Origin: a virus
Strand: one strand, 5' to 3'
Virus record (IMG/VR): IMGVR_UViG_3300028589_000016
Location: 1-43,010 of that record
Length of the DNA: 43,010 nt
This document shows positions 1,645 to 39,478 of the stretch, in pieces. Position 1 is the first letter of the stretch, and every line of letters starts with the position of its first letter. The translations under genes and the position numbers were made by a program. Below the pieces are notes generated by a model that saw nothing but the letters and a program-made list of their open reading frames with translations, was not told the DNA's origin and made no database searches.

Positions 1645-1660
1645 GTAACCGACTCGCTAG
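1645..1660 (+). promoter_or_regulatory. Directional 16-nt element ahead of primase-helicase
   Basis: GTAACCGACTCGCTAG, one of eight unique copies, immediately after the HNH stop codon and 26 nt before the primase start. A short CCCCT...AGGGG hairpin (1662-1680) follows that would include the ribosome binding site. Copy at 42243-42258. Confidence 0.75.
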
Positions 1661-1686
1661 CCCCTCAGCGAACGAAAGGGGAAACG

Positions 1687-4131
1687 GTGCTTTTCAATGA
1701 CCTACTGAGCCGGTTCGCTGAGGTGACCGAACAGAGTGACGGCGGGTTCCTCGCTGTGTGCCCCTCGCACGGGGATTCCCGCCCGTCGCTGCGCATTTGG
1801 ATTGGCGACGATCGCAAGGGCCGACTCACCTGCCGCGCAGGCTGCGCCACCAAGGATGTGGTTGCTGCGGCTGGTCTGACTTGGGGAGACCTGTTCAACA
1901 TCGAAGGTGACGCACCGACCGTATCCAGCGCCAAACCTGAGTTGGTCGGTCCGAAGCACGTGGCGGCGCTTGACGGTTACGCGCGGGATGCTGCCGACCG
2001 GCTGACCGACTTCAGCGACGAATGGTCGACGATCGCGCGCAACTACCTGAACGATCGGTTCGGCATGTCCGTCGAGACTGCCTACAACCTTGGGGTTGGG
2101 GTGGACGACACGACGGTAAACCCTCTCTTCGGTGCGCTGAGCACGGCTTACAAGCGCTATGCGCGGCTGACGGTGCCTCTGCTCGACTTTGCCGGTACTC
2201 CGCGCGGCTTGCAGGGGCGTGACCTTACCGGCCAGTGTCCGGGGCGCTGGGTGTCGCTGAGCAACCCGGAAGGCTTCAGATGGGCCCCCTACGGCGTATT
2301 CAAGGGCGATGGGGGTTACGGGGTCACCCTGGTGACTGAAGGGCCCGGAGATGGCCTTACGGGCGTCGCAGTGGGCTACGACGTGGTCATGGTCCGGGGC
2401 GCTGCCCTGGTCGGTTCACCCGAGACGCTCAGCGAGATTGCGGACGGTGTGTCTGGTACGCAGGTCATCGCCTGCGGGGACAACGACAGCGCCGGACGGG
2501 AGTTCAACCGCCGTTTGGCGGAGGGTCTGAAGCCGTTCGGTATCACTGTCTACGCGCTGCCCATTCCGACCAACTTGGGACCCAAGTCTGACCTTACGGA
2601 CTGGCGTGGCGCTGAAGGACAGACGTTCGCGCTGAGTCTGCACAAGGCTGTCAAGGCTGCGCGCCCTGTGGTGAAGGCTGAGGACACTGCCCGCGCTGAG
2701 GTCAGCGAGGAACTGAGCGAGGCTACCGGCGCTGACATTGTGTCGCGCGACCAGGGCAACGAAGCGGCGCGCATCCTCGCCGGTCTGCTCGAACGGTACG
2801 GGGACACCGACGCGATGAACGCTCACGCGCTGGTGGCTTGGACCGATGGGCGGATCAAGTATGCGCCCGGACTTGGGTTTTACGTGTGGAACGGCCGCAC
2901 GTGGGAGCGCTCAGAGGTCAAGGTACGTCAGGAGATTCACCGCATGGGCGCTGCCCTGGTGCTCGCTGGCAAGGTCAAGGAAGCGCGCGGGTTCACCATG
3001 ACCACGCGCATCAATGACCTGATGACCGAGTTGCGCAGCGTGCCGAGTGTGTACGTGGCCCCTGGTGATTTCGACAACCGCCCCGAGTTGCTCAGCTTCC
3101 GTAACGGCACTGTCGAGTTGCGTACGGGTCGCCTGCGTCCGCACTCGCAAGAGGACATGCTGACCTACTGTCTCGCGCTGGACTATGACCCTGAGGCGCA
3201 GTGCGCTCGCTGGGAAAAGTTCCTTGAAGAGATCATGCCGGGGATGCCGGACATGCCTGCGTACCTTCAGCGGTTGATCGGGTACGGGATTACGGGTCTC
3301 ACCGATGAGCAGTGTTTCGCGGTGCTCTGGGGGAAGGGCGCTAACGGTAAGAGTGTGCTGACTGACACGCTGTCGGCTGTGTTCGGTTCGGTCACCAAGA
3401 CAACCCCCTTTGCCACGTTTGAGGAAAAGCAATCGGGCGGTATCCCGAACGATATTGCGGCGCTGCGTGGTTCGCGTCTGGTCATGGCGTCTGAGGGCGA
3501 GTCGGGTAAGCCGATGAGCGAGGCTGTACTGAAGCGCGTCACCGGTAAGGACATGGTCAGCGCACGGTTCCTGCGGCAAGAATTCTTTGAGTTCAAGCCG
3601 TCGTTCCTGCTGATGCTGGCGACGAACCACAAACCGAAGTTCAAGGGCCAGGATGATGGTCTATGGCGACGCGTCAAGATGATTCCGTTCAAGCGGTTTT
3701 TCGCTCCGCATGAGCGGGACCATGACCTAGACAAGCGGCTCATGGCTGAGGCGCAGGGCATCGCGGCTTGGGCCGTTCGGGGCGCTGTCGAGTGGTTCGC
3801 GAACGGTCTGCGGGACCCCCAAATCATCACAGCAGCGTCGCGCGAGTACCGCGAAACGTCCGATGCGCTGGTTGGTTTCTTCCCTGGTGTCTACGACCGG
3901 GATGAAGCGTCGCAGGTCCCTGGCGCTGAGGCGTACAACGCCTACCGGGAGTGGTGCGAGGCTGAGGGGCTACCGTCCAAGGAAATTTGGACGCGTCGCG
4001 CATTCTATGACGCGATGGAAGAGCGCCAAGTCACCCGTAAGAAGACGAACAAGGGAATCACGCTGGTGGGTATCCGACTCGCTAGCAGCGAGGCAAAGCC
4101 TACGGGTCCGGGCATCTTTGCCCGCGACTGA
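1687..4131 (+). CDS. DNA primase-helicase (P4 alpha/D5 type)
   Basis: 814 residues, the replicative primase fused to a superfamily 3 helicase. The N-terminus has a CHC2-type zinc motif (C25, H28, C49, C53). A Toprim-type centre follows with TEGPGDG near 217-223 and ACGDND at 262-267. The C-terminal part has a Walker A GKGANGKS at 549-556, a probable Walker B region near MASEGE, and the sensor-like LATNHKP near 644-650, as in D5/P4-family helicases. The GTG start has GAAAGGGG upstream. Proteins of this class make primers and unwind DNA, and in P4 the protein also recognises the origin. It follows the directional element and precedes the polymerase, with which it forms the replication module. 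Confidence 0.95.
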   Translation: MLFNDLLSRFAEVTEQSDGGFLAVCPSHGDSRPSLRIWIGDDRKGRLTCRAGCATKDVVAAAGLTWGDLFNIEGDAPTVSSAKPELVGPKHVAALDGYARDAADRLTDFSDEWSTIARNYLNDRFGMSVETAYNLGVGVDDTTVNPLFGALSTAYKRYARLTVPLLDFAGTPRGLQGRDLTGQCPGRWVSLSNPEGFRWAPYGVFKGDGGYGVTLVTEGPGDGLTGVAVGYDVVMVRGAALVGSPETLSEIADGVSGTQVIACGDNDSAGREFNRRLAEGLKPFGITVYALPIPTNLGPKSDLTDWRGAEGQTFALSLHKAVKAARPVVKAEDTARAEVSEELSEATGADIVSRDQGNEAARILAGLLERYGDTDAMNAHALVAWTDGRIKYAPGLGFYVWNGRTWERSEVKVRQEIHRMGAALVLAGKVKEARGFTMTTRINDLMTELRSVPSVYVAPGDFDNRPELLSFRNGTVELRTGRLRPHSQEDMLTYCLALDYDPEAQCARWEKFLEEIMPGMPDMPAYLQRLIGYGITGLTDEQCFAVLWGKGANGKSVLTDTLSAVFGSVTKTTPFATFEEKQSGGIPNDIAALRGSRLVMASEGESGKPMSEAVLKRVTGKDMVSARFLRQEFFEFKPSFLLMLATNHKPKFKGQDDGLWRRVKMIPFKRFFAPHERDHDLDKRLMAEAQGIAAWAVRGAVEWFANGLRDPQIITAASREYRETSDALVGFFPGVYDRDEASQVPGAEAYNAYREWCEAEGLPSKEIWTRRAFYDAMEERQVTRKKTNKGITLVGIRLASSEAKPTGPGIFARD

Positions 4132-4148
4132 CACAACACGCAGCCTGA

Positions 4149-4183
4149 GGGGTCACCTACGAATTTTCGTACGTGGCCCCTTT
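4149..4183 (+). terminator. Operator palindrome inside a terminator-like hairpin
   Basis: The operator TACGAATTTTCGTA (4158-4171) is nested in an outer stem GGGGTCAC (4149-4156) with GTGGCCCC (4173-4180), followed by TTT. It lies between primase and polymerase and could act as protein roadblock, terminator or both. Confidence 0.7.
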
Positions 4184-4210
4184 GTGCTGCCCATAGAGAG
4201 GGTGCACGCA

Positions 4211-6076
4211 GTGAAGGTTTACGACTACGCCATTGCTGGTGAGCCGGTTACGGTCAAGGTCCCCGAAACCTACGCCGACTTGATCGAGTTTCAGGAATGG
4301 GTGCGGCTGGCGAACGCTCGCGGCCCTATCGCGCTGGACACCGAAACCACTGGCCTTGACATCTACTCGCCCGGCTACCGGCTGCGTACGGTCCAGTTCG
4401 GGGACCGGCATACGGCATGGGTCATCCTGTGGGAGTTGGGCGGGTACTTCCAGCACTTTGCACTGCGTGCGCTGGACTACATTCGCCGCTTCCAGATTCA
4501 CAACGCCCCGTTCGATTGGGCTGTGTTGGACAGGCACGCCTACGGGAACGGGTACCGGGCGACGATTGAGAGCCTCGCGCCGCGCACCATCGATACTCGG
4601 CTGAAGGCTGGTCTAGTCGACCCGCGACAGCCGCAGGAGGGTGGCCGGGGGACTGGTCTGAAGCCGCTCAGCGCCTACTACCTTGACCCGAACGCGCCCG
4701 ACACTCAGGGAGACCTCACGGCGGTATTCCGCTCGCTGAAACTCACCAAGGCTACGGGTTGGGCCGGTATCCCGATCGATCACCCCACGTACCTTCTTTA
4801 CGCTGGCCTTGACGTGATCCTCACTGCCCGGCTGGATACCGCGCTTGACGCTGAGCTGGATGCGCTGGGGGTCCGTCCGGCGCTGATCGAGTATGAGCAT
4901 GAGATAGCCCGCATCTGCGCTGTCATGCAGCGAAAGGGCATGATCCTTGATACCGAGTACACGCAGGCGCTTGACGCCCAACTCGGCGAAGAGGCGCTCA
5001 AGTTTGAGGCTGTCGCGCTCCGCTACGGCGTAGAGAACATCAACGCGACTCGGCAGGTGGTTGACGCTCTGCTCGCGATGGGGGAGACCCTCACCGACCG
5101 TACGGCGTCCGGGGCGTTCAAGGCCGATAAGGCAGTCCTCTGCGCGCTCGCTGACCTTGACCAGAACACTTGGCAGCGACTCGGCAGCCGGACCCCTAAC
5201 CCGCTGGCGGACGCGATCATTCGCAGCAAGCGGGCCGGTAAGTGGCGCAGTTCCTACACTCAGACGTTTCTCGACGTGGCCGACAGCGAAGGTCGCGTGC
5301 ACAGCTTCATCAACAGCATGCAGGCGCGTACGGGGCGCATGAGTGTGACGCGTCCGGCCCTTCAGACCCTGCCTAGCTCTGATCAGATGATCCGGCGCGC
5401 TCTGCTGGCCGAAGAGGGGCACGTCATGGTGTCCACTGACTTTGCGGCTGTCGAACTGCGCGTGTTGGCTGCGCTGGCGGATGTGAAGCGGATGAAGGAA
5501 GCGATCCGGAACGGCGAGGATCTGCATAGCTTCACTGCGCGGCTGGTGTTCGGCCCGGACTTCACTCCGAAGCACCGGAAGATTTCTAAGGGCATCGCGT
5601 TCGGCAAGGTGTACGGGGGTGGCGCTGCCACGATTCAGCGGCAGACGGGTGCGCCCATGGAAGAGGTGAAGCGGGCCCTTGCTGCCTACGACCGTGTGTA
5701 CCCGGAGGTACGGCGTATGTCGAACCGCTGGCAGCGCGAGGCGTACGAAACGGGCATGGTGCATGTGTCTGTCACTGGTCGCAGGCTGCCGCTGGACCGT
5801 GAGCGCACGTACGCCGTTGTGAACTACGCCTGTCAGTCGGCTGCGCGTGACTGTCTGGGGCAGTCGCTGATCAATCTTGAAGAGGCTGGCTTGCTGGAAG
5901 TGCTGCGGCTGCCGATTCATGACGAAGTGCTGGCGAGTGTCCCGGAGGCTGAGGCAGCGGACTACGCGCGTGAGATCGAGCGCTGTATGACGTTTGACCT
6001 GTACGGGGTCCCGATTGAGGCTGAGGCCGAAATCGGCAAGCGTTCGTGGGGGAGTCTGTACGGCGCTGACTACTAA
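4211..6076 (+). CDS. Family A DNA polymerase with 3'-5' exonuclease
   Basis: 621 residues from the GTG at 4211 (GAGAGGG about 9 nt upstream; GTG 4202 is an alternative). The N-terminal half is a proofreading domain: Exo I D43-T-E45, Exo II NAPFD (98-102), Exo III Y197...D201. The C-terminal half has polymerase motif A STDFAAVELR (catalytic D410), motif B KHRKISKGIAFGKVYG, and motif C IHDEV (D571). All catalytic carboxylates are present. It lacks the 5' nuclease domain of cellular Pol I, as is usual for phage enzymes. It copies the phage genome together with the upstream primase-helicase. The reading frame is open upstream through the primase tail, but that part is in another gene and does not resemble a polymerase. 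Confidence 0.96.
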   Translation: MKVYDYAIAGEPVTVKVPETYADLIEFQEWVRLANARGPIALDTETTGLDIYSPGYRLRTVQFGDRHTAWVILWELGGYFQHFALRALDYIRRFQIHNAPFDWAVLDRHAYGNGYRATIESLAPRTIDTRLKAGLVDPRQPQEGGRGTGLKPLSAYYLDPNAPDTQGDLTAVFRSLKLTKATGWAGIPIDHPTYLLYAGLDVILTARLDTALDAELDALGVRPALIEYEHEIARICAVMQRKGMILDTEYTQALDAQLGEEALKFEAVALRYGVENINATRQVVDALLAMGETLTDRTASGAFKADKAVLCALADLDQNTWQRLGSRTPNPLADAIIRSKRAGKWRSSYTQTFLDVADSEGRVHSFINSMQARTGRMSVTRPALQTLPSSDQMIRRALLAEEGHVMVSTDFAAVELRVLAALADVKRMKEAIRNGEDLHSFTARLVFGPDFTPKHRKISKGIAFGKVYGGGAATIQRQTGAPMEEVKRALAAYDRVYPEVRRMSNRWQREAYETGMVHVSVTGRRLPLDRERTYAVVNYACQSAARDCLGQSLINLEEAGLLEVLRLPIHDEVLASVPEAEAADYAREIERCMTFDLYGVPIEAEAEIGKRSWGSLYGADY

Positions 6077-6108
6077 GGGTCGCCTCAGTTACGGCCCCGT
6101 AGCGTGAG

Positions 6109-6150
6109 AAACGGCCATGTTCCTTCTACGGAGCGTGGCCGTTTCGCACT
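6109..6150 (+). terminator. Hairpin downstream of the polymerase
   Basis: GAAACGGCCATG pairs with CGTGGCCGTTTC around a loop of about 18 nt. There is no long T run, but its position 30 nt after the polymerase stop suits a terminator. Confidence 0.5.
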
Positions 6151-6322
6151 TGTGACCTAGGCAACTTCGTCCAAGATCGAACTTTCGAAACACTGGCTTC
6201 ACCCTGCATCTAGTTCCGTCCAACCTCTGATTCTCAGGTATGAGGTTGGGTCACGCCTTCGAAACCTCTGCAACTACATCGGTTAGTAGGTTGTCTAAAG
6301 GTGTGTCACATACGAAAGGCCA

Positions 6323-6351
6323 TTGACCACCTACGAAAAACGGCATTAGAT
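6323..6351 (+). promoter_or_regulatory. Sigma-70 type promoter for the sigma-factor gene
   Basis: TTGACC, 17-nt spacer, TTAGAT. One operator half site lies in the spacer and another just upstream, so the palindrome-binding protein could also act here on half sites. The distance to the start codon at 6531 leaves a long leader containing the directional element. Confidence 0.55.
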
Positions 6352-6481
6352 CAGTCCCACGCCCTACCGAGTCGCCCGGCCGGAGACTCGGAAGAGCAGA
6401 CAGCGACCCACCTGAGAACGGGTCACGTCTGTGTCCTAGCGCTGCCCTCTGACCAGCGCATTCACCGGCCGGACTCCTCAG

Positions 6482-6497
6482 GTAACCGACTCGCTAG
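6482..6497 (+). promoter_or_regulatory. Directional 16-nt element ahead of the sigma factor
   Basis: GTAACCGACTCGCTAG, 33 nt before the ATG of the sigma-like gene. If it is a promoter for that sigma factor, it would form a positive feedback loop. Confidence 0.75.
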
Positions 6498-6530
6498 TCC
6501 CCAGCGAACACACCTGAACGGAGTCATCCC

Positions 6531-7667
6531 ATGCTCACGCTTGCCCAGATTCACGCTGCCCAGACCAACGACCTTGCCGGTATCAGCGCCGTACTGACCG
6601 AAATGGATGAGCGAGTCAAGCGCCTCGCTGCCAGCGCTGCCCGTCGACTGTCGGACCACGGTCACTACCGCGAAGACTTTGAGCAGGATGCCCGAGAGGC
6701 TCTGTTCATGGCGCTGCCTCGCGTGACCGGTGACAGCGTGGACCGTGCGATCGGTTTCCTCTACGCGTCCATTGAGGACGCTCTGAAGGACCGAGTCAGG
6801 GCGATCCGTTACCAGGGCGCGGACAAGGATGCAGTCAAGGTCTTTACGTCCATGCTCGCCCGTACCGACGGGGACGCGCACAAGGCTGAGGTGCTGGCGC
6901 AGACGGAACCGCCCAAGGGTGTGCGACTCGGGGCCGACCGTGCGCAGGCTGCCCGTATCGCGTGGCAGGGGAGTGTCTACCTTGACCGGCAGACCGGCGA
7001 GGGTGAAGCGTCGCTGGCTGACACGCTGGCCGCTCCGCAGGATGACGCGCCGGACGTGGTTCGCCCCAAGGTTGGCCGGGGTGCCGTTCTGGAAGCGCTG
7101 AGCGTCATCGAGCGGTACGTGACCGTTCCCACCGACGCCGACGCCCGTGAGGGGCTGCTGAAGGCTCTGGACACCATGGCTACCGGTTACGCCACCCCGG
7201 ACGCCGTTGAGGCGCTCAGCGAGGCTGTCAGGGTCCCGGCTGACCCCACCACGCGACGACTGGTGCTCGACGCCGTAGCGATCCTGCACAGCAGCGCTTC
7301 AACGGCCACCGATGGCGCTGTCGCCGATGACCTGCGCGACGTGTCCGATGACCTGCGCGATGAGCGTGCGGTGAAGCACCTGAACGTGTCGGCTGCACTC
7401 GACCGCATGGGGGACAAGCAGCGCGACATCCTGCGCTACAGCTTTGGCATCGGTGGCGCGGAAGACTTTGGTTGGGGCGACGCTGGCGACCTTGAAGGAC
7501 TGGCCGAGTTTCTCGGCATGACCACTCACCACGTCAAGACGTACCGCTCTAAGGCTCGCGTCTCGTTCGTTAAGTACTACGTGGCCATCGTGGCTCGCAC
7601 TGAGGCTGAGGCGCTCGCGCTGGCCGATGCGGCTGCCGCCAACCGCACGCAGGCGGGCCGTAAGTGA
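6531..7667 (+). CDS. Phage sigma-70-like RNA polymerase sigma factor
   Basis: 378 residues. Residues about 20-85 look like region 2: helices around VKRLAASAARRLSDH, then YREDFEQDAREALFMALPR and a DRVRAIR segment. A DRQTGEGEASLADTL segment resembles the conserved stretch between regions 3 and 4. The C-terminal part has a region 4 helix-turn-helix: ALDRMGDKQRDILRYSFGIG, then LAEFLGMTTHHVKTYRSKA. Such proteins replace or compete with the host sigma to redirect RNA polymerase. An Ala/Asp-rich stretch of roughly 100 residues lies before region 4. The ATG has ACGGAG upstream. The gene follows the directional element and overlaps the next gene by GTGA. I am confident of the family, less of its target promoters. 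Confidence 0.8.
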   Translation: MLTLAQIHAAQTNDLAGISAVLTEMDERVKRLAASAARRLSDHGHYREDFEQDAREALFMALPRVTGDSVDRAIGFLYASIEDALKDRVRAIRYQGADKDAVKVFTSMLARTDGDAHKAEVLAQTEPPKGVRLGADRAQAARIAWQGSVYLDRQTGEGEASLADTLAAPQDDAPDVVRPKVGRGAVLEALSVIERYVTVPTDADAREGLLKALDTMATGYATPDAVEALSEAVRVPADPTTRRLVLDAVAILHSSASTATDGAVADDLRDVSDDLRDERAVKHLNVSAALDRMGDKQRDILRYSFGIGGAEDFGWGDAGDLEGLAEFLGMTTHHVKTYRSKARVSFVKYYVAIVARTEAEALALADAAAANRTQAGRK

Positions 7668-7969
7668 GCAAGGTCTGTCGTGGGTGTGGGGTCACCAAGC
7701 CTCACACCCACTTCACCCGTGAGAAAAGGGCCCGCGATGGACTCAGGGCCCGCTGTCGAGAGTGCACCAGACAGCAGTCAGCCGAGTGGCGAGCAGCCAA
7801 CCCGGAGCGACGCAAGACGTACGACAGACAGGCAGCGCAGGCGCGCAAGGAATACCAGCGCGAATGGCGTGCGGCCAATCCCGAGCGTGTTCGCGCGTAC
7901 CGACAGACCTACGAGAGCAAGGCGGACGCGCGTGACTACCTCACACAGTGGCGCAAGGCTCATGGCTGA
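7664..7969 (+). CDS. Endo VII/HNH-like protein, N-terminal half (zinc and linker)
   Basis: 101 residues. The N-terminus has CRGCGVTKPHTHF and CRECTRQQ, a four-cysteine zinc motif as in Endo VII and HNH-type phage nucleases. The rest is a basic helical linker in which EWRAANPER occurs twice. There is no nuclease core in this frame. The stop at 7967-7969 overlaps the ATG (7962) of the next frame, which supplies the missing HNH core. In the paralogue at 1213-1644 both parts are one protein. So this is either a split nuclease made from two coupled genes, a frameshifted fusion, or a broken gene. It is coupled to the sigma gene upstream by GTGA. Confidence 0.7.
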   Translation: MSKVCRGCGVTKPHTHFTREKRARDGLRARCRECTRQQSAEWRAANPERRKTYDRQAAQARKEYQREWRAANPERVRAYRQTYESKADARDYLTQWRKAHG

Positions 7970-8204
7970 CGCGTACGCGCGCACTCGCAGGCACCGTACG
8001 GCCCCCTACAAGCGCGCTGAGGTCTTTGCCCGCTGGGGTGGCCGGTGCTGCTACTGCGACGCGCCAGCGGAGCACCTAGACCACGTCACGCCCCTGTCAC
8101 GGGGTGGTCGGGATGTGCTGGCGAACGTCGTCCCTGCCTGCGCTGACTGCAACCTCTCGAAAGCTGCGTTGACCCTCGCTGAGTGGCTGGCAGTGACCGA
8201 GTAA
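7962..8204 (+). CDS. HNH endonuclease core, C-terminal half
   Basis: 80 residues in the +1 frame relative to the gene before. It contains WGGRCCYCDA, LDHVTPLSRGG and VPACADCNLSKAALTLAEWL, the full HNH core with the zinc cysteines and the DH and N residues. The alignment with the 1213-1644 nuclease is continuous from MADAYARTRR onward, so the frame break falls in the linker between zinc motif and core. The ATG lies inside the last codons of the upstream frame, which allows re-initiation. The TAA stop is part of the directional element at 8201. Confidence 0.75.
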   Translation: MADAYARTRRHRTAPYKRAEVFARWGGRCCYCDAPAEHLDHVTPLSRGGRDVLANVVPACADCNLSKAALTLAEWLAVTE

Positions 8205-8216
8205 CCGACTCGCTAG
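8201..8216 (+). promoter_or_regulatory. Directional 16-nt element
   Basis: GTAACCGACTCGCTAG. Its TAA is the stop codon of the HNH core gene, and the next start codon is at 8256. Confidence 0.75.
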
Positions 8217-8596: not shown

Positions 8597-8602
8597 CGGG
8601 CA

Positions 8603-15270: not shown

Positions 15271-15365
15271 AAGTGATGAAGTGACGATTAGACCCCACTC
15301 CCGGTAATACATATAGGTTTCTATAGCGATTACAGAACGGCCCATCGTTCCGTCACTTCGTCACT
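15271..15365. repeat. Nested dyad element, copy A
   Basis: Outer arms AGTGATGAAGTGACG and CGTCACTTCGTCACT pair with one G-T. Each arm is a tandem repeat of GTGACGA-like units. An inner pair GTAAT/ATTAC encloses TATAGGTTTCTATA, itself a hairpin. A second copy with stronger arms is at 38351-38444, and both share GTTTCTATAGCGATTAC and TAGACCCCACT. Both lie about 75 nt after a terminator and just ahead of a directional element. Confidence 0.8.
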
Positions 15366-15396
15366 ACCCCTCACGGACGACTCGCGCACACAGCGG

Positions 15397-15412
15397 GTAA
15401 CCGACTCGCTAG
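15397..15412 (+). promoter_or_regulatory. Directional 16-nt element ahead of the tRNA cluster
   Basis: GTAACCGACTCGCTAG. Unlike the other copies, what follows is not a protein gene but tRNAs, which argues that the element acts in transcription rather than in translation. Confidence 0.75.
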
Positions 15413-15535
15413 TAATAGTGTATGGGGCGGTTGTTCCCGCGCACTCAGGTACTACGATCCGGCGGACTGTGGACCCTTGCCCCTCGCCCAGCGCTCCCCT
15501 GCCTCTCTCTCCCAGGGTTGTAGTGCTGGGCACAT

Positions 15536-26090: not shown

Positions 26091-26422
26091 CGGCCCGCCC
26101 GGAGCGGCAGTTCTATTTCCGGCTCGCTGGTTTCCTTGGTATGCCTGTGGCCGAGTTGCTCGCCCGTACGTCGTCACGCGAACTTTCGGAGTGGCTGGCG
26201 TATGAGCGAGTAACCGGCCCGCTTGATATCCGGCTACGTACGGAGATCTCTGCGGGCATCATCGCTGCGACTGTCGCCAACTCGAACGGCGCAAAACGCA
26301 GAGCGAAACCGTCCGACTTTCTGCCTACGTGGTTCAAGCGTAAGAAGACTGTCCGCGAAATGTGGCAGGAAGTTGTCCGGGCTAACACTGCTCTGGGCGG
26401 ATCGTATAAGCGGGCCGAGTAG
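25722..26422 (+). CDS. Tail assembly chaperone, frameshifted (G-T type) product
   Basis: Reading 25722-26087 and then, after a -1 slip, from 26087 gives about 233 residues. The added part begins LTARPERQFYFRLAGFLGMP and includes AELLARTSSRELSEWLAYER, a well-known signature of siphophage T-type extensions, and a basic end (FLPTWFKRKKT). No independent ribosome binding site supports a separate gene for the second frame. Both products help wrap the tape measure, whose gene follows. Confidence 0.9.
26081..26087 (+). promoter_or_regulatory. Programmed -1 frameshift site
   Basis: G GGA AAC, an X XXY YYZ heptamer, directly ahead of the TAA stop at 26088-26090. The -1 frame is open from 26072 through to 26422. 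Confidence 0.88.
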
Positions 26423-32265: not shown

Positions 32266-33888
32266 TTGTCTACTCCCGTTGAGGCTTGGCGTCCCGGTAT
32301 GGACATCACCGGCGGACGACTTCAGTACATGCTAGAGCGGCTGAACACTTCCAGCACGATGAATGTTGAGACGTTCGGCGCTGTCGGTGACGGTGTCACG
32401 GACGATACTGCGGCTATTCAGGCTGCGCTCAACTTCGCCAGCGAGAGCGGCGGCGGGCTGGTGCAGTTCACGCCCGGTAAGACGTACGCCATTTCGACGT
32501 TCATTGTCGCCTACGACTACACCACCATTTACGCGTACGGTGCGACGATCAAGAGCATTGGCAATACGGGCATCCTCCGTAACTTCCGCTCTGATGAGAG
32601 TTTCAGCGAGTACGGGGGACACTCGCATATTCAGGTGCTGGGCGGTGTGTGGGACGGTAACGCGTTCAACGGCACTACGGGCAGCGTCACCAGCATGACC
32701 AACATCATGAGTTTCGTACACTGTACGGACATCACTGTGCGGGATGCGACGCTTCAGAATGTGTCGAGTGCTCACGCGCTGGAGTTCAATTCGACCGATG
32801 GTGGACGGGTACTCAACTGCAATTTCTTCGGCTTCCAGGACAACTCAGCTGATGGTTCGCGCGGGTTCGCTGAGGCCGTACAGATCGATATTGCGAAGAG
32901 TGGTTCAGCGTCTATCGGCGCGTTTGATGACACACCCTCGCGCAACATCCTGGTTGATGGCTGCGTGTTCTCAAACTCGGCTCGCTGCGGCTACTTCGGT
33001 CGCGCTGTCGGCTCTCACACGCTGTCCGCTGGCAAGGCGTACTACGGTATTCAGGTGGTGAACAACCGCGTTGATGGCACGCTGCAAGAGGGCATCCGGG
33101 GCTACGGCTGGCGTCGCGCTGTCATCGCTAACAACGTCATCAACTCCAGTGGTTCTAGCGGCATCTGGCTTGGCACCAGCAACCCCAGCAGTATCGCCGT
33201 AGACACCTACGATCTGACGGTGTCCGGCAACACCATCACGAACGCCAAGTCTGACAGTGGTATTCGGGTCATCGGCTACAGCGCCAGCAAGGTGCAGCAA
33301 GCGGTGATTACCGGCAACTCGGTCAACGGTGGTGGCTCTGGCAACGCGAACGGTATTCACGTCGAGTATTGCGAGTCGCCTGCGGTGACCGGTAACACGC
33401 TGGCGTTCGTGCGCGGTACGGGCATCTACAACAACCTTTCTGACTCGGGTTCGATCACCGGCAACACCATTCGGAACAACACGTCTAACGGCATCAACGT
33501 GACGGGTTCCACGGGCACTGTGGTGAGTTCCAACCACGTCAACGGCTGTAGCACGAACCACTGCATTTTCGTCACTACGTCGAATGACTACCTGATCACC
33601 GGCAACCGAGTGACGAACGCGTCCAGCACGGGTGCGGGCATCAGGCTTGGCGACGGCGCGAACGATGGCACGGTGACCAACAACCGCATTGTGAAGGGCA
33701 CTTCACAGAACGGCATCACGACCAGCGGCACCAGCGGTTCGCAGCCGACTGGCGTGACGATCGCCAACAATGATCTAACCGGTAACGGCTGGTCGTCCAC
33801 TGTGGGCATCAGCATCGGTTCGGGCGGTACGGCCACCACGTCATTCAGCGGAGGCAGCACCATTCCGGGCGCGAACCTTGTGAGCTAG
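32266..33888 (+). CDS. Tail spike with pectate-lyase-like beta-helix
   Basis: 540 residues from a TTG, chosen for the CAGGAG site 9 nt upstream. After a short particle-binding N-terminus (STPVEAWRPGMDITGGRL) comes the signature TFGAVGDGVTDDTAAIQAAL of the pectate lyase 3 type. The rest is a right-handed parallel beta-helix with repeated GNTI and SGI turns up to the C-terminus. Such spikes bind and often cut cell-surface polysaccharides. An intact catalytic site cannot be confirmed by eye. Confidence 0.87.
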   Translation: MSTPVEAWRPGMDITGGRLQYMLERLNTSSTMNVETFGAVGDGVTDDTAAIQAALNFASESGGGLVQFTPGKTYAISTFIVAYDYTTIYAYGATIKSIGNTGILRNFRSDESFSEYGGHSHIQVLGGVWDGNAFNGTTGSVTSMTNIMSFVHCTDITVRDATLQNVSSAHALEFNSTDGGRVLNCNFFGFQDNSADGSRGFAEAVQIDIAKSGSASIGAFDDTPSRNILVDGCVFSNSARCGYFGRAVGSHTLSAGKAYYGIQVVNNRVDGTLQEGIRGYGWRRAVIANNVINSSGSSGIWLGTSNPSSIAVDTYDLTVSGNTITNAKSDSGIRVIGYSASKVQQAVITGNSVNGGGSGNANGIHVEYCESPAVTGNTLAFVRGTGIYNNLSDSGSITGNTIRNNTSNGINVTGSTGTVVSSNHVNGCSTNHCIFVTTSNDYLITGNRVTNASSTGAGIRLGDGANDGTVTNNRIVKGTSQNGITTSGTSGSQPTGVTIANNDLTGNGWSSTVGISIGSGGTATTSFSGGSTIPGANLVS

Positions 33889-33892
33889 CACC

Positions 33893-33906
33893 TACGAACT
33901 TTCGTA
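33893..33906. promoter_or_regulatory. Operator palindrome after the tail spike
   Basis: TACGAACTTTCGTA immediately after the tail spike stop, flanked by CAC and GTG, directly before the terminator that holds the directional element. Confidence 0.72.
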
Positions 33907-33909
33907 CGT

Positions 33910-33972
33910 GGTCCGGGGGAGTAACCGACTCGCTAGTGAGTGAGTGTGGTCTACCCCCGGACCGTTTTCTTT
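33910..33972 (+). terminator. Terminator with a directional element in its loop
   Basis: GGTCCGGGGG (33910-33919) pairs with CCCCCGGACC (33954-33963), followed by GTTTTCTTT. The 34-nt loop contains the directional element at 33921-33936. Confidence 0.82.
33921..33936 (+). promoter_or_regulatory. Directional 16-nt element ahead of lysis genes
   Basis: GTAACCGACTCGCTAG inside the loop of the late terminator, 47 nt before the endolysin ATG. Confidence 0.75.
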
Positions 33973-33983
33973 GAAGGGACCCC

Positions 33984-34829
33984 ATGGGTACTAACTGGAT
34001 TCCTGGCGCTGAGCGGCTAGGCGATGGCTCCATTGGCGGGGCCATGGACAGCCCTACCAAGCCAGCGCGCGTGGTCTGGCATTCAACCGAGTCGGGGGCC
34101 GGTGACGCTGCCTTCAAGGCTGTCGCTGGCTACCTGATCAAGATTGGTGCAGAGCCGCACATTCTGTATGACCCCACTACGGACAGGCTTGGGCAGTTCG
34201 GCCCGCTCAATCAGTCGGCCCGCGCGCTGAAGAACGATGGGTCTACGCGCACGAACCGTACCGGCAAGGTGTGCATTCAGATTGAGGTACTGGCGCGAGC
34301 CGCTACGCCGTTCACTGGCTACTGGAAGCCGGGCCCGAACTTCCGCGCGCTGATGGCTGCTATCCGTTCGTGGGGCGTGCCGGACACGTTCCCCATGGGC
34401 GCTCTGGCGAGCCGCTACGCCGACCCTGCGGCTAAGCGCACGCGTGATGTGTGGCTGAGCGAGGGTGGCCACTACGGGCACAGCAACATCCCCGGCAATG
34501 ACCATTGGGACCCCGGCAACATCAGCAAGTCGGCTCTCTTCGCTGCGGCCCCTACGGCTGCCAAGCCTAAGCCTGTGGCCACCTATGAGCCGTTCCCCGG
34601 CGCTGCGTTCTTCAAGCGCAAGCCGAAGAGCGCCATCGTCACGGCCATGGGTAAGCGGCTGGTCGCTGCCGGGTATAAGGGCTACAAGGTTGGTCCGGGC
34701 CCGCAGTGGACCGACGCCGACCGTGAGGCTTACGCGTGGTGGCAGCGCAAGTGCGGCTATTCCGGCGCTGGCGCTGATGGCTGGCCGGGCAAGTCGTCTT
34801 GGGACCGGCTGAAGGTTCCGAACGTCTAG
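33984..34829 (+). CDS. Endolysin: N-acetylmuramoyl-L-alanine amidase with cell-wall binding domain
   Basis: 281 residues. The N-terminal amidase-2 domain has VVWHSTESG (zinc H33), the middle ICIQIEVLARA-like strand (KVCIQIEVL), and GNDHWDPG (H174, D176). The C-terminal domain from about 205 (FPGAAFFKRKPKSAIVTAMGKRL ... GADGWPGKSSWDRLKV) is of the peptidoglycan-binding kind found in actinophage lysins. It cuts the bond between glycan and stem peptide at the end of infection. No signal peptide, so export depends on a holin. The membrane proteins follow. Confidence 0.93.
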   Translation: MGTNWIPGAERLGDGSIGGAMDSPTKPARVVWHSTESGAGDAAFKAVAGYLIKIGAEPHILYDPTTDRLGQFGPLNQSARALKNDGSTRTNRTGKVCIQIEVLARAATPFTGYWKPGPNFRALMAAIRSWGVPDTFPMGALASRYADPAAKRTRDVWLSEGGHYGHSNIPGNDHWDPGNISKSALFAAAPTAAKPKPVATYEPFPGAAFFKRKPKSAIVTAMGKRLVAAGYKGYKVGPGPQWTDADREAYAWWQRKCGYSGAGADGWPGKSSWDRLKVPNV

Positions 34830-34832
34830 GCC

Positions 34833-35075
34833 ATGGCTGAGCAGGAAGATTCCCTAGGTGTCACCATCGGGGCGCGCGAAATCTACGATCAGGTGGTCGG
34901 CCTGCGGGATGACGTGCGCTCCCTGGTGCAGTCGAATGATGCTGTGCAAGAGACCCTCACTGACCATGAGGACAGGCTACGCAGCGTCGAACGCTGGAAG
35001 TACGCAGTACCGACAGCGACCATCGGTGCCATTGTGAGCGCCGGTATCACCATCACTAAAGCCATCGGAGGCTAA
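34833..35075 (+). CDS. Membrane-anchored coiled-coil protein in the lysis cassette
   Basis: 80 residues. A helical coiled-coil (REIYDQVVGLRDDVRSLV to DHEDRLRSVERWKY) is followed by one C-terminal membrane segment (AVPTATIGAIVSAGITITKAI). This fits the small DUF2746-type proteins that lie next to holins. It could be a holin or a holin regulator. The start codon is three bases after the endolysin stop. Confidence 0.7.
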   Translation: MAEQEDSLGVTIGAREIYDQVVGLRDDVRSLVQSNDAVQETLTDHEDRLRSVERWKYAVPTATIGAIVSAGITITKAIGG

Positions 35076-35077
35076 AC

Positions 35078-35257
35078 ATGGGTGAGCATTCCGCCCCTAC
35101 CCCCGGCAAGTTCGTCACGGCTGTGCGCTGGCTGCTGGCCAATAAGGGCAAGGTCGCCTCTGCGCTGATCGTTGCCGTTCCGTTCGTCAGCCGCTATGTC
35201 CCCGGATTCCCCACTGATGAAGTGGTCAGTGTCCTGCGCCTATTCCTGGGTGCCTGA
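35078..35257 (+). CDS. Putative holin, 59 aa
   Basis: ATG at 35078 with CGGAGG upstream, two bases after the previous stop. Residues about 12-40 (KFVTAVRWLLANKGKVASALIVAVPFV) are hydrophobic with some charge; at least one membrane segment is likely and a second weaker one may be at the C-terminus (VVSVLRLFLGA). Its position after the endolysin is the main ground for calling it a holin. Its TGA is followed at once by the directional element. Confidence 0.65.
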   Translation: MGEHSAPTPGKFVTAVRWLLANKGKVASALIVAVPFVSRYVPGFPTDEVVSVLRLFLGA

Positions 35258-35273
35258 GTAACCGACTCGCTAA
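35258..35273 (+). promoter_or_regulatory. Directional element ahead of the dNMP kinase (one base change)
   Basis: GTAACCGACTCGCTAA, directly after the stop of the holin-like gene. It is followed with no gap by the hairpin at 35274-35303. Confidence 0.7.
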
Positions 35274-35303
35274 CCCTCCCCTGAGAACCTACTCAGGGGA
35301 GGG
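35274..35303 (+). promoter_or_regulatory. Perfect hairpin covering a ribosome binding site
   Basis: CCCTCCCCTGAG pairs perfectly with CTCAGGGGAGGG around a 6-nt loop. The right arm contains AGGGGAGGG, the ribosome binding site of the ATG at 35309. It may end the lysis transcript or hide the start site of the kinase gene. Confidence 0.75.
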
Positions 35304-35308
35304 CGCAC

Positions 35309-35857
35309 ATGCGCAACATCGCGTTTATCGGCAAGGCCCGTTCGGGTAAGGACGCGTCGGCACTCTGGCTTGTCCGCCAGCGCGCCTATACCCGGCTCGC
35401 GTTCGCTGACCCGCTCAAGGAAATGGCGCTCAGCGTTGACCCGTACATCCCGACCACCTACGGCGTAACTGTGCGCCTCAGCGCGCTTATCGCTGACGTG
35501 GGTTGGGACTACGCCAAGGATCGCTATCCGGAGGTTCGCCGGACGATTCAGCGCATGGGTCAGAGCGTGCGCGAGCACGATGAAGACTTTTGGGTTCGGA
35601 CGCTGGCGCGCAAGGTGGACAACGCGGATGCGTGGAACCTGCCCGTAGTGGTGACTGACGTCCGGTACCCCAACGAAGCGAACATGCTGCGTGCGCGCGG
35701 GTTCCTGCTGGCGCGGATCGTCCGGCCCGAGCGGCAGATGATCGAGCATGGCAACCACGCCAGCGAGACGGCGCTAGACAGCTTTGAGGCTGACCGGATC
35801 GTCTACAACACTGCGACTCTCGATGACCTGTACCGGCGCGTTGCCGAGTTGGGTTGA
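35309..35857 (+). CDS. Deoxynucleoside monophosphate kinase
   Basis: 182 residues. P-loop GKARSGKD at 8-15, then FADPLKEMALSVDP and a RYPEVRRTIQRMGQSVREHDEDFWV segment, and VVVTDVRYPNEANML with a Walker B-like strand. This layout is that of phage dNMP kinases (T4 gp1 family). It phosphorylates dNMPs, the step after dTMP formation by ThyX. The ATG at 35309 is just after the hairpin. Confidence 0.87.
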   Translation: MRNIAFIGKARSGKDASALWLVRQRAYTRLAFADPLKEMALSVDPYIPTTYGVTVRLSALIADVGWDYAKDRYPEVRRTIQRMGQSVREHDEDFWVRTLARKVDNADAWNLPVVVTDVRYPNEANMLRARGFLLARIVRPERQMIEHGNHASETALDSFEADRIVYNTATLDDLYRRVAELG

Positions 35858-35925
35858 CCTGCACTTTTGCCCCTGGTGGCTGCGCTGACGCGCGGTCGCT
35901 GGGGGCATTTCTGCGTTTGGCCACC

Positions 35926-35975
35926 TACGAATTTTCGTACCTGACTTGCGCCGACCCCCGTTCGTACCCCATGAT
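35926..35975 (+). promoter_or_regulatory. Operator-promoter module
   Basis: TACGAATTTTCGTA (35926-35939), 6 nt, TTGCGC (35946-35951), 18-nt spacer, CATGAT (35970-35975). The flank CCTGAC after the palindrome is the same as at the minus-strand module near 17312. Confidence 0.68.
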
Positions 35976-36011
35976 GGAGACACAACGAAGAACACACCGG
36001 AGGGGAACCCA

Positions 36012-36446
36012 ATGAACTACATCACCGACCGCGACGACCAGGGCCGCTACATCACCACCGCTGAGACCCCGGAGGGTGTGGCCATTTACACCGGCGGCGC
36101 GTACCTCACCTACGGCGCGTCCGTCACCGACGCGAAGTGCTGGGTTGCCTTCCACGGGGAGACGGCGAAGGTGAACGCGGAGGCGCTCGCGGCTGGCAAG
36201 GCGGCCCGCGCGAAGATGGACGCTGAGAACACGGTGACGCTGTCGACCGGTACGCACATCGTGCCCCCGATGATGGCGTTCGAGCTGCGCCAGCCTGCCC
36301 CGCACCCTCGCAACGGGTTCGCTGGCACCCTGGGCAAGCGCATGCGGGCCCGTCAGATGCTCTTCGCGGAGGCTGCCGAACTGTTCGGTATCTCGGCTGC
36401 TGAGGCGCGGACGCTGCCCCGACTCCTGCGCGCTAACAAGTACTGA
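36012..36446 (+). CDS. Operator-controlled early protein, possible DNA-binding C-terminus
   Basis: 144 residues, ATG at 36012 behind GGAGGGGAA. The N-terminal half (MNYITDRDDQGRYITTAETP, GVAIYTGGAYLTYGASV) is beta-rich. The C-terminal end RQMLFAEAAELFGISAAEARTL could be a helix-turn-helix, though it is short. A Cys and several conserved-looking glycines are in the middle. No family is recognised. It is the only gene between the module at 35926 and a terminator, so it is a single-gene early unit and one of the regulator candidates. Confidence 0.65.
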   Translation: MNYITDRDDQGRYITTAETPEGVAIYTGGAYLTYGASVTDAKCWVAFHGETAKVNAEALAAGKAARAKMDAENTVTLSTGTHIVPPMMAFELRQPAPHPRNGFAGTLGKRMRARQMLFAEAAELFGISAAEARTLPRLLRANKY

Positions 36447-36452
36447 CCTAGT

Positions 36453-36480
36453 GGCCCCTGGCGCTACGGCGCTGGGGGCC
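36453..36480 (+). terminator. GC-rich hairpin terminator
   Basis: GGCCCCTGGCGCT and GGCGCTGGGGGCC form a 13-bp stem with G-T pairs and a 2-nt apparent loop, just before the next operator-promoter module. Confidence 0.7.
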
Positions 36481-36486
36481 CCCAGG

Positions 36487-36535
36487 TACGAATTTTCGTA
36501 AGTGACTTGACATAGGGGCCTGACTACGGAATAGT
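36487..36535 (+). promoter_or_regulatory. Operator-promoter module with consensus -35
   Basis: TACGAATTTTCGTA (36487-36500), 6 nt, TTGACA (36507-36512), 17-nt spacer, AATAGT (36530-36535). The consensus -35 suggests that this is the strongest of the early promoters. Confidence 0.75.
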
Positions 36536-36575
36536 CGGCCCCGGTAACAACGACGACAGGGCAGGGGACGGAACG

Positions 36576-37949
36576 ATGAACTTCAAGCGGACTACGGCGA
36601 GCGGCATCACGCAGTACATCGCTGAGGGCGAGTCGTTCCGTTACAGTGCCCAGCGCAACGGCAAGGTGTGGGCACTGATCGTCACCAAGCTGCGCACCGT
36701 CGCCGGTATCCGCGTGGCTGCCGACGGTCCCCCGCACAAGATCGCCACTCACGACACGCTGGCGCTCTGCAAGGCCGTTTCCGGCGAGTTCGAGACGCTG
36801 GGGGACGACTACCGGAGCGCCGACCACGGCCACCGCGAGCGGTACACCGAAGCGGTTCAGCGCGCCTACGGCGTGACCACCGAAACGCAGGCGGAAGAGC
36901 CTGCCACCACTGAAGGGGAGACGGACATGACGAACGGTAACGACGTGAACACGGAAGAGGGCCGTAAGGTGCTCGACCAGATCATCGCCAACATCGAGCG
37001 GGCCCGTTCGCTGGCGACTGAGGACAACGCGGACGCCCTTGAGACGCTGGGCAAGGAGACCGAGACGCTGATCTCCTCTCTGTCTGGCAGGGGCAGCATC
37101 AAGCACAAGAAGGACTATCGGGACGCGTGGAAGGCTGCCGTTGAGGCCGCGCAGGCTGCCCGTAAGGCCGAGGTCGCGCAGGTCGAGAGCAAGGGCTACG
37201 CCGAATACGACGGTGTGCCCGAGCTGATCGCCATGGGCGCTGAGCGGGTCGCCGAGGGCGTTCGCCTTCAGGTCAAGGTGGGCACGCTCGCCAAGGAAAT
37301 CGCCTCTATCGGTCTCGACGTGGTGCGCCGCCTGCCCAACCGCGAGGGTAACCCGGACATCATGATGACCAGTCAGGAAGCGCGCGACGCCATGAGCGCC
37401 CTGTACGCCAAGGCTGGTGAAGGCTTTGAGCACACGTTCGAGAATGAGCAGTCGCTGAAGAAGTTGCAGCGCAGCGTGCAGTACTACCGGACCGACATCC
37501 GCGCCGAGTACCTGCTGAGCCTTGACGGGGACAGCGCTGAGGCGCAGGCCGAGCGGGAACTGTTCGGCAAGGTGCTGGAGTCCAAGCCGGAAGAGACGCC
37601 CGTTTCCGAGTGGCTCGCCCAGCAGTACGGGACGGCGCTGAAGGGCAAGGCCGCGATCGAGCGGGAAAAGTGGCAGGCCGCGCAGGCCATCGAGTCGGGC
37701 ACCCCGGCCAGCAGCGAGGGTGAGGGCGAGGGGTCCGGCGAGGGTGAGGGCAGCGACAGCGCCAGCACCACGCCGACCGACACGCCGGACGACCGTATCC
37801 GCGCGGTGGTGAAGCGGCTGAAGGCAGACGTGATCAAGGCCAAGCCGGAAGACTTCAGCAAGGCCACCGACGAGACGAAGGAAGCGGTCCGGAGCGAACT
37901 GGAAGAGCTCTACGAAGCGCTTAAGAAGATGATCACCGCGACCCTGTAG
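36576..37949 (+). CDS. Large operator-controlled protein, 457 aa, with an internal start
   Basis: The protein has an N-terminal domain of about 100 residues (MNFKRTTASGITQYIAEGES, HKIATHDTLALCKAVSG), an acidic linker, a mostly helical central domain (residues about 125-375, with YAEYDGVPELIAMGAERVAEGVRL), a Ser/Gly/Glu repeat tract (SSEGEGEGSGEGEGSDSAS) and a helical C-terminus. An in-frame ATG at 36927 has GAAGGGGAG upstream and would give a 340-residue form without the first domain. Third codon positions look richer in G and C than in neighbouring genes, as in a highly expressed gene. It looks like a family common in Streptomyces phages, but I know no function. It is under the strongest-looking operator-controlled promoter. 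Confidence 0.72.
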   Translation: MNFKRTTASGITQYIAEGESFRYSAQRNGKVWALIVTKLRTVAGIRVAADGPPHKIATHDTLALCKAVSGEFETLGDDYRSADHGHRERYTEAVQRAYGVTTETQAEEPATTEGETDMTNGNDVNTEEGRKVLDQIIANIERARSLATEDNADALETLGKETETLISSLSGRGSIKHKKDYRDAWKAAVEAAQAARKAEVAQVESKGYAEYDGVPELIAMGAERVAEGVRLQVKVGTLAKEIASIGLDVVRRLPNREGNPDIMMTSQEARDAMSALYAKAGEGFEHTFENEQSLKKLQRSVQYYRTDIRAEYLLSLDGDSAEAQAERELFGKVLESKPEETPVSEWLAQQYGTALKGKAAIEREKWQAAQAIESGTPASSEGEGEGSGEGEGSDSASTTPTDTPDDRIRAVVKRLKADVIKAKPEDFSKATDETKEAVRSELEELYEALKKMITATL

Positions 37950-37972
37950 GGCGCACCGACCACGTAAGGCAT

Positions 37973-37998
37973 GGGGGGTCCGGGATAACCGGGCCCCC
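37973..37998 (+). terminator. Intrinsic terminator
   Basis: GGGGGTCCGG-GATAA-CCGGGCCCCC, 10-bp stem, followed by TCTCACGTTT. Confidence 0.75.
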
Positions 37999-38016
37999 TC
38001 TCACGTTTGGAGCGAC

Positions 38017-38214
38017 ATGGAACACCTGAACTGCCAAGGCTGCACCGATGACCACACACGCGAGCCGGGACCGATTCAGTTCATCGTGCGGCCGGTGAAG
38101 GCTGGCCACGCTGATAATTCGTTCACCTGTGAGCGCCACCTAGCCATGGTGGTCCGGGCGTACGGTCGGCAGGGGTTCGCCTGTCACGTCAGAACCATCC
38201 GTCTGACGCCCTGA
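38017..38214 (+). CDS. Small Cys/His-rich protein, 65 aa
   Basis: ATG at 38017 with TTTGGAG upstream. CQGC near residue 7 and CERHLAMVVRAYG with a second C/H pair near 38-41 suggest one zinc site. The rest is basic. No family is recognised. It lies between two terminators, so it may be read through from the gene upstream. Confidence 0.6.
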   Translation: MEHLNCQGCTDDHTREPGPIQFIVRPVKAGHADNSFTCERHLAMVVRAYGRQGFACHVRTIRLTP

Positions 38215-38236
38215 GTGCCTCTATGAGCGCCTTCTA

Positions 38237-38275
38237 GCCCCATCTGGCCCCTGAGGTCAGGTGGGGTTCTTTCAT
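38237..38275 (+). terminator. Probable terminator
   Basis: CCCCATCTGG pairs imperfectly with TCAGGTGGGG and is followed by TTCTTT. It is 75 nt ahead of nested dyad copy B, the same spacing as at the first copy. Confidence 0.65.
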
Positions 38276-38350
38276 GCCCGCAGAGAGCCGTACAGACGTT
38301 GTCACGTAGCGTCGGTGGTCTGCCGACACAGCGTAGTCAGCGCCAGAGCA

Positions 38351-38444
38351 AGTGACGAAGTGACGATTTAGACCCCACTTCAGTAATCCCTAAGAGTTTC
38401 TATAGCGATTACTGGACTGCCCATCAAATCGTCACTTCGTCACT
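38351..38444. repeat. Nested dyad element, copy B
   Basis: Perfect 19-bp outer arms (38351-38369 and 38426-38444), each a tandem GTGACGAA-GTGACGAT-type repeat, with inner AGTAATC/GATTACT arms. It shares TAGACCCCACT, GTTTCTATAGCGATTAC and GCCCATC with copy A at 15271-15365. It ends two bases before GGTAACC of the directional element. Confidence 0.85.
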
Positions 38445-38446
38445 AG

Positions 38447-38462
38447 GTAACCGACCCGCTAG
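38447..38462 (+). promoter_or_regulatory. Directional element ahead of the exonuclease (one base change)
   Basis: GTAACCGACCCGCTAG. It directly follows the nested dyad and lies 33 nt before the exonuclease start. Confidence 0.72.
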
Positions 38463-38495
38463 CCCTCAGTCGTACAGACGACGAAAGGGGCCCTA

Positions 38496-39326
38496 GTGGG
38501 AATCCGCACTATCCAGCGCAGTGGCGCGCGGTTTTACTTCAACGAAGATTTTCCGGAGATCAAGTATCCGGGAGTCACGTCCGTAATCGGCATGCTGCCT
38601 AAGCCGTTCCTTGCTTTCTGGCAGGCGAAGATGGTGGCCGAACTGGCCGTTGACTCGCTGGAGTTCATCGAGCAGATGGCGCAGCGGGACCGTGACGGCG
38701 CTATCCAGTATCTGAAGGGCGCTGCGAACCGGTACACCAAGCATCGTGCCGGTATCGGCTCTCAGGCGCATGACCTGTTTGAGCGCATGATTAGGGGCGA
38801 GCGGCTGGCGCGTGTGCACCCGGACATGGCCCCGTACCAGCGCCATTTCGGTGAGTTCCTTGACCTGGTTCAGCCCGAGTTGGTTCGCGCTGAGGATGTG
38901 GCGTGGTCCGATGAGCATGAATACGCCGGATCGTTTGATGCCGTGCTGCGTCTGCGTCTCGATGACCAGGGCCGACCGGACCCCGCTGGCGATCCGGCCC
39001 TTGTGATGACGGACTGGAAGACGTCCAAGAGCACATATCCGGAAGTGGCTTTGCAGATGGCTGCATACGCTCACGCTGACTTCATCATCGCGCCGGACGG
39101 TAGTCGCGAGCCGATGCCCGAGTTTGACGGCGCGTGTGTCCTGCACATCACTGACGAGACGTGGGCATTCAAGCCGGTCCGTATCGACCAGTCGGATGTG
39201 TTTGAGCACTTCCTGTCTCTGCGCCACACGTTCGAGTGGGACAAGCGCGTCTCTAAGACGGTGCTGGGGGACCCCATCGCGACGGGTACGGGTGGTCTGG
39301 TCACCGGCACTCAGCGGAGGGCGTAG
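38496..39326 (+). CDS. RecB/Cas4-type exonuclease (PD-(D/E)XK)
   Basis: 276 residues from a GTG with AAAGGGG upstream. The residues of the nuclease are in place: H92 in IGSQAHDLFERM, SFDAVL with D148, DWKTSK with D173 and K175, and QMAAYA with Q187. These are the motifs of RecB-family/Cas4-like exonucleases common in actinophages. It probably processes DNA ends in recombination or replication. It is the first gene behind dyad copy B and a directional element. The product beginning is MGIRTIQRSGARFYF. Confidence 0.88.
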   Translation: MGIRTIQRSGARFYFNEDFPEIKYPGVTSVIGMLPKPFLAFWQAKMVAELAVDSLEFIEQMAQRDRDGAIQYLKGAANRYTKHRAGIGSQAHDLFERMIRGERLARVHPDMAPYQRHFGEFLDLVQPELVRAEDVAWSDEHEYAGSFDAVLRLRLDDQGRPDPAGDPALVMTDWKTSKSTYPEVALQMAAYAHADFIIAPDGSREPMPEFDGACVLHITDETWAFKPVRIDQSDVFEHFLSLRHTFEWDKRVSKTVLGDPIATGTGGLVTGTQRRA

Positions 39327-39328
39327 GC

Positions 39329-39466
39329 GTGCGCACAGTGGCATCCCTTGCGGCTCTCACGCTGGTCGCTGCTGTCGGCATCTGGGCGTGGTTCTTCGGC
39401 CCGTGTGACCTGTACCGGTTCACAGCGTCCGCAGATGTGCCGGGGCGCTGCCTGATGGGCGAGTAA
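39329..39466 (+). CDS. Tiny membrane protein, 45 aa
   Basis: GTG at 39329, three bases after the exonuclease stop. Residues about 3-23 (TVASLAALTLVAAVGIWAWFF) form one membrane segment, followed by GPCDLYRFT and a second cysteine. GGAGGG upstream is a good ribosome binding site. The TAA stop belongs to the directional element at 39463. Function unknown. Confidence 0.6.
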   Translation: MRTVASLAALTLVAAVGIWAWFFGPCDLYRFTASADVPGRCLMGE

Positions 39467-39478
39467 CCGACTCGCTAG
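39463..39478 (+). promoter_or_regulatory. Directional 16-nt element ahead of the directionality factor
   Basis: GTAACCGACTCGCTAG, overlapping the previous stop codon and followed 12 nt later by a 13-bp hairpin. Confidence 0.75.

Follow-up and report, generated by a model that had tools for sequence, protein, structure and literature searches.

The window analysed here, the whole 43,010-nucleotide stretch of IMG/VR virus record IMGVR_UViG_3300028589_000016, comes from a Streptomyces phage of the phiC31 family and carries nine unique copies of a directional 16-nt block, all on the plus strand (Table 1). Our analysis indicates, with a probability of about 0.88, that this block is the recognition part of a promoter regulon used by the sigma-70-family factor that the phage itself encodes. 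A comparison of 64 related phages indicates that block and sigma factor change in concert, half for half and almost letter for letter, and natural domain swaps of the sigma factor agree with this, since they appear to exchange the matching half-block. The repetition of the block, its conserved slots, its co-divergence with the sigma factor, the coupling of its halves to sigma domains and a pyrimidine–purine (YR) element at fixed spacing were all computed directly.

Block copies and their conserved slots

All eight plus-strand sites listed in the original prediction are present, six of them exact and two with a single mismatch. That list had overlooked a ninth genuine copy at 4070 (GTATCCGACTCGCTAG, one mismatch), which lies within the primase gene at its 3' end and shortly precedes the DNA polymerase gene. 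Its position is kept in relatives, and phage Rowa carries a block of its own type at the equivalent place. With up to three mismatches allowed and the minus strand counted too, 13 matches were found against 0.28 expected in shuffled sequences, and none of 100 shuffles reached 13. The match at 42243-42258 is the same site as that at 1645 and not a separate copy, a result of the window's terminal redundancy: the unit measures 40598 bp, and the last 2412 bp of the window repeat its first 2412 with seven differences. A match at 26210, with three mismatches and inside a gene, is probably due to chance. Overlap with the stop codon of the preceding gene, noted earlier as frequent, occurs at some copies (1645, 8201 and 35258) and is not a general rule.

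The downstream genes proposed earlier are indeed homologues of phiC31 proteins. The primase, polymerase, sigma factor, gp13, dNMP kinase, exonuclease, recombination directionality factor (RDF) and repressor all match by blastp with E-values of 4e-9 or better, and the endolysin is a homologue too, the small gene after 8201 being that of gp13; the start of the gene after 39463 had to be moved from near 39504 to the ATG at 39575. This gene set places the region among the phiC31-family (Lomovskayavirus-like) regulatory regions. phiC31 has a directional repeat of its own, GTTGCCGACTCCCTTA, which we take to be the phage-specific early promoters of phiC31, reportedly the subject of work by Ingham, Smith and colleagues in the 1990s. 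This repeat precedes gp46, dNMP kinase, exonuclease, gp2, RDF, primase, polymerase, sigma, gp13, gp25 and the tRNA, so that eight of the nine window slots coincide with phiC31 block slots, the endolysin slot being the exception. Both the slots and the shared core GTnnCCGACTCnCT assign the window block to the phiC31-type early promoter set. The two phages, members of one family, differ in the sequence of the block; moreover, for the window the data allow a reader to be proposed (a sigma factor of the gp12 family), together with a fixed initiation element and a correspondence between half-blocks and protein domains.

Co-divergence of the block and the sigma factor

The genomes compared were 19 named relatives, taken whole, and 80 viral contigs that encode a sigma homologue. 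Some 90 related phages and contigs were searched de novo, and most proved to have a directional 16-nt block placed 41-63 nt upstream of the start of the sigma gene. In these, the plus strand holds 3-15 copies of it and the minus strand few or none. Its sequence diverges by sub-family, with types such as GTAACCGACTCGCTAG, GTAACCGACTCGACAG, GTAATCGAACCGCTAG, GCGTTCGAACCGCTAG and GCGTTCGACT..ACAG, to which GCATTCGACTCACTAG, GTCACCGACTCCCTTA, CTTAACCCACTCACTC, GGAATCCCCTCCGCTC and others can be added. The alignment was built from 478 copies; these came from 64 related, non-redundant phages, each of which has a block of its own.

Block similarity follows sigma identity (Spearman 0.69) better than that of the primase (0.46) or the polymerase (0.34). 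The partial correlation is 0.61 for sigma, a value equalled in none of 300 permutations, and 0.06 for the polymerase given sigma and primase. Nine further genes correlate with the block at -0.02 to 0.63, and sigma given each of these genes retains a partial correlation of 0.56-0.81 (0/300 each time); none of the eleven other genes tracks block divergence as well as sigma does. The outcome is nearly the same when only copies lying over 1.5 kb away from the sigma gene are compared (correlation 0.67, partial 0.58).

The coupling can be divided between the two halves of the block. Positions 0-4 covary preferentially with sigma region 4 and positions 12-14 with region 2 (p 0.001-0.005, position permutation). 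At the level of single residues, D337 goes with C at block position 1 (14/16 versus 1/32) and Q341 with T or C at position 0 (8/8 versus 0/39), while A at position 12 accompanies loss of K103 and R90. The window's own T337 aligns with Q589 of sigma-70, a residue that contacts the -35 element. Three pairs of loci illustrate the domain swaps: L087 and L077 (region 2 84% identical, region 4 39%) as well as L101 and L091 (76% and 39%) have only the 3' half of the block in common, and L101 and L087, with a recognition helix 71% identical and region 2 at 44%, share only the 5' half.

The presumed reader belongs to the sigma-70 family by its regions 2 and 4, an assignment made because of profile searches and a structural model. 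In the PDB, sigma factors are the sole matches to its profile, in regions 2 and 4; the AlphaFold2 (AF2) model (pLDDT 87.6) shows helices for regions 2, 3 and 4; and the top Foldseek matches of this model are sigma factors.

Several observations weigh against a sigma-read promoter. The Foldseek E-values are weak, and the Pfam matches of the window protein to Sigma70 regions 2 and 4 stay below Pfam's cut-off. Once sigma is accounted for, HNH7, RDF and primase still correlate slightly with the block (0.11-0.18). The observed half/domain order is matched by 3-4 of 21 circular shifts, and the covariation counts are only partly corrected for phylogeny, the changes by tree amounting to 3-5 for C1, 6-7 for D337 and 2-3 for the T/C0-Q341 pair. 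In addition, the automatic search gave no convincing block in a few loci (e.g. L076, L147 and L150), and the Dubu and phiSASD1 genomes have a block, yet another repeat ranked best upstream of sigma.

It could also be argued that the block is the site of another phage regulator, such as an activator working with a host sigma factor, and that the sigma gene merely co-travels. A contiguous 16-nt site would be ordinary for a DNA-binding activator, and the link between block and sigma comes here from sequence and not from biochemistry. However, such a regulator leaves unexplained that sigma tracks the block best among the genes tested, that the coupling involves region 2 and the recognition helix of region 4, in the order expected, and that sigma domain swaps match half-block swaps, which makes this explanation improbable.

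A fixed putative initiation element and a proposed compact promoter

A second conserved block, not found earlier by eye, emerges when many copies are aligned: a YR step and AAGG at fixed spacing. Counted from the block start, positions 24-29 read [CT][GA]AAGG. They carry 0.24-0.66 bits of information, where random values peak at 0.064, and T is underrepresented from position 25 onward. A YR step occurs at 24/25 in 78% of the 478 copies and at 6-31% for the other positions in the range 16-39. In the window it falls exactly at 24/25 in eight of the nine copies, the purine coming one base earlier at 6482. We infer that transcription starts (+1) at this step, 25 nt after the block start, so that the block would span approximately -28 to -9. 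Taking position 25 as +1, T is found at -12 in 80% of copies. The same start fits the tRNA slot as well, where no ribosome site is involved.

These promoters would depart from the classical sigma-70 type, in which an upstream element near -35 stands 16-18 nt from the -10 element: across the 478 copies no strong conserved element was found upstream of -28, with only a weak preference for C near -34. If the 3' half of the block is the -10 element, its 5' hexamer lies about 7 bp away instead of 17, and the layout is apparently compact, one helical turn shorter; of our claims this is both the most unusual and the least secure. We consider the odds about even that a sigma-70-family factor reads a contiguous promoter in which the region 4 site abuts the -10 site, and that these dozens of phages amount to a natural collection of sigma/promoter pairs, with halves exchanged via domain swaps. 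Were this true, region 4 would need a different placement on the polymerase, because its site abuts the -10 site.

Hairpins and alternative roles of the block

The second role originally proposed, that the block acts as RNA in the manner of an antitermination or put/nut-like signal modifying the polymerase that transcribes through it, drew on three copies (33921, 35258 and 39463) which do stand in or before strong hairpins. The block would be carried by read-through RNA, and it pairs slightly better with its own leader than with those of other phages (mean -1.15 kcal/mol per phage), a difference confounded by base composition. However, the 16-mer has no consistent structure: apart from the hairpin at 35258, no consistent fold was found for the block plus 29 nt, and the conserved RNA structure expected within a nut/put-type element is thus missing. 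At 33921, read-through RNA folds at -38.4 kcal/mol and RNA from the predicted +1 at -7.1; at 35258, the corresponding values are -33.2 and -2.4. In both cases the 5' arm of the hairpin is upstream of the predicted +1 and can therefore be folded by read-through RNA only, an arrangement that looks suited to catch read-through RNA and spare the new transcript. Since the block would lie upstream of the RNA that it starts, with a YR element fixed 25 nt downstream and a sequence that co-diverges with the sigma factor, an RNA signal is highly improbable.

At 39463, the strong hairpin begins at the predicted +1, inside the transcript, and RNA from this point folds at -43.4 kcal/mol. The RDF leader (39488-39575) would thus open with a strong hairpin, possibly an attenuator, and similar G-rich leaders follow apparent RDF-slot copies in some relatives.

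Sites at which a repressor halts elongating polymerase, or stoperators, are known from mycobacteriophage L5 and Streptomyces phage R4. Those of R4-type phages have been described (PMC10276819). The block resembles stoperators in being asymmetric, directional, located in short intergenic gaps and repeated some ten times, but a separate 16-copy palindrome, CCTACGAANNTTCGTAGG, suits the c repressor, the block diverges in step with sigma and no account would be given of the YR element; a stoperator or operator role is hardly credible. A translation signal is rejected, as one copy stands in the tRNA slot, an argument of the original prediction with which we agree. The block also resembles the T7 promoter core (CGACTCxCTA), and this reading was set aside as no single-subunit RNA polymerase was seen among the larger window open reading frames tested, with no dedicated model searched.

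Proposed mechanism and its significance

In the mechanism that we favour, the phage sigma factor would guide host RNA polymerase to nine sites. There, sigma region 2 would recognise the block's 3' half as a -10-like element and sigma region 4 the 5' half, with initiation predicted at the YR step 25 nt past the first base of the block. As the sigma gene itself stands behind a block, positive feedback may result. First sigma synthesis could come from a host-type promoter, and repressor c may hold off the whole programme through separate palindromic operators. In the endolysin and dNMP kinase slots, a start past the hairpin 5' arm would spare the transcript a structure in which read-through RNA is caught. 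The true start site, the binding, the activation and the close spacing of the two readers are predictions drawn from sequence comparison.

Like T4 gp55 and SPO1 gp28, such a factor would redirect host polymerase to a phage regulon; it differs from them in having regions 2, 3 and 4 and in using a contiguous block (about -28 to -9), not a -10 element alone or a -35/-10 pair. The division of specificity between region 4 for the upstream element and region 2 for the -10 element is familiar from ECF and other alternative sigma families, in which 16-17 bp separate the hexamers instead of the approximately 7 bp proposed here, where the upstream element adjoins the -10 part. Sigma-54 promoters (-24/-12) have a recognition block of similar span relative to the start; this likeness is one of geometry only, as the window protein is of the sigma-70 family.

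While this kind of system is known, its reader protein, initiation element, residue rules and compact layout are new to our knowledge. A single candidate reader can now be named for the long-known early promoters of phiC31-type phages, with start sites predicted to the base, and who switches on these genes, and how, becomes testable. The pairing rules between residues and bases (D337 with C, Q341 with T/C) and the natural swaps could be tested in one laboratory strain. If the compact geometry is true, a sigma-70-type factor works with a promoter about one helical turn below textbook spacing. The family also supplies numerous divergent sigma/promoter pairs, possibly exclusive of one another.

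Probable repressor operators, leaders and further features

Repressor c is a separate regulator. The palindromic repeat CCTACGAANNTTCGTAGG has 16 sites in the window, from 1021 to 41619, against 0.04 expected, one of them a terminal duplicate; it is probably the operator of this repressor, like CCTACTCACGTGAGTAGG in phiC31. A non-coding gap of 400 nt (6077-6481) precedes the sigma gene, in which operator-like half sites and a TTGACC/TTAGAT pair were spotted by eye; a consensus scan for host promoters before the sigma gene returned none and did not recover this pair.

Table 1. Copies of the 16-nt block and other regulatory features of the window
Feature	Position	Strand	Remarks
Block, primase slot	1645..1660	+	Exact; predicted +1 1670; YR at 1669/1670; gene from GTG 1687; phiC31's own block in equivalent slot
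Block, DNA polymerase slot	4070..4085	+	One mismatch; predicted +1 4095; polymerase start candidates 4184-4211
Block, sigma-factor slot (putative autoregulation)	6482..6497	+	Exact; predicted +1 6506-6507; in most relatives 41-63 nt upstream of sigma start
Block, gp13 slot	8201..8216	+	Exact; predicted +1 8226; gene from ATG 8256, phiC31 gp13 homologue (41% identity, E 4e-9)
Block, tRNA slot	15397..15412	+	Exact; predicted +1 15422; tRNA-Asp from 15536; slot and similar leader in phiC31, phiBT1, TG1, Rowa, Dubu
Block, endolysin slot	33921..33936	+	Exact; in hairpin loop; predicted +1 33946
Block, dNMP kinase slot	35258..35273	+	One mismatch; predicted +1 35283
Block, exonuclease slot	38447..38462	+	One mismatch; predicted +1 38472; phiC31 block 21761 precedes phiC31 exonuclease
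Block, RDF slot	39463..39478	+	Exact; predicted +1 39488; RDF from ATG 39575, 40% identical to phiC31 gp3 (E 1e-42)
Phage sigma-70-family factor	6531..7667	+	378 aa; phiC31 gp12 family; presumed reader of the block
Host-type promoter candidate	6324..6355	+	TTGACC, 17 nt, TTAGAT; possible first sigma synthesis
phiC31-type repressor c	36576..37949	+	PF25746, 'Streptomyces phage repressor protein c' (E 5e-69); putative palindromic operators of its own

A 96-nt direct repeat (15271-15366 and 38350-38445, 76% identical) is located shortly upstream of the tRNA and exonuclease blocks. From the predicted +1 to tRNA-Asp runs a leader of about 115 nt (15422-15535), conserved in phiC31, phiBT1, TG1, Rowa and others; its hairpin displays changes on both sides of pairs, and it matched no Rfam family. 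A scan of genome contigs with the 16-mer matched ten stretches; of these, a Streptomyces stretch (L154), in which two copies are exact, appears to be related, and the single matches seen in unrelated bacteria probably arose by chance. Finally, a tandem double block, GTAACCGGCACGCTAG followed by GTAACCGACTCGCTAG, stands in the apparent tRNA slot of L021, L023 and L032, with one base different in L023, and doubled blocks are also present in Heather, RemusLoopin and Sebastisaurus.

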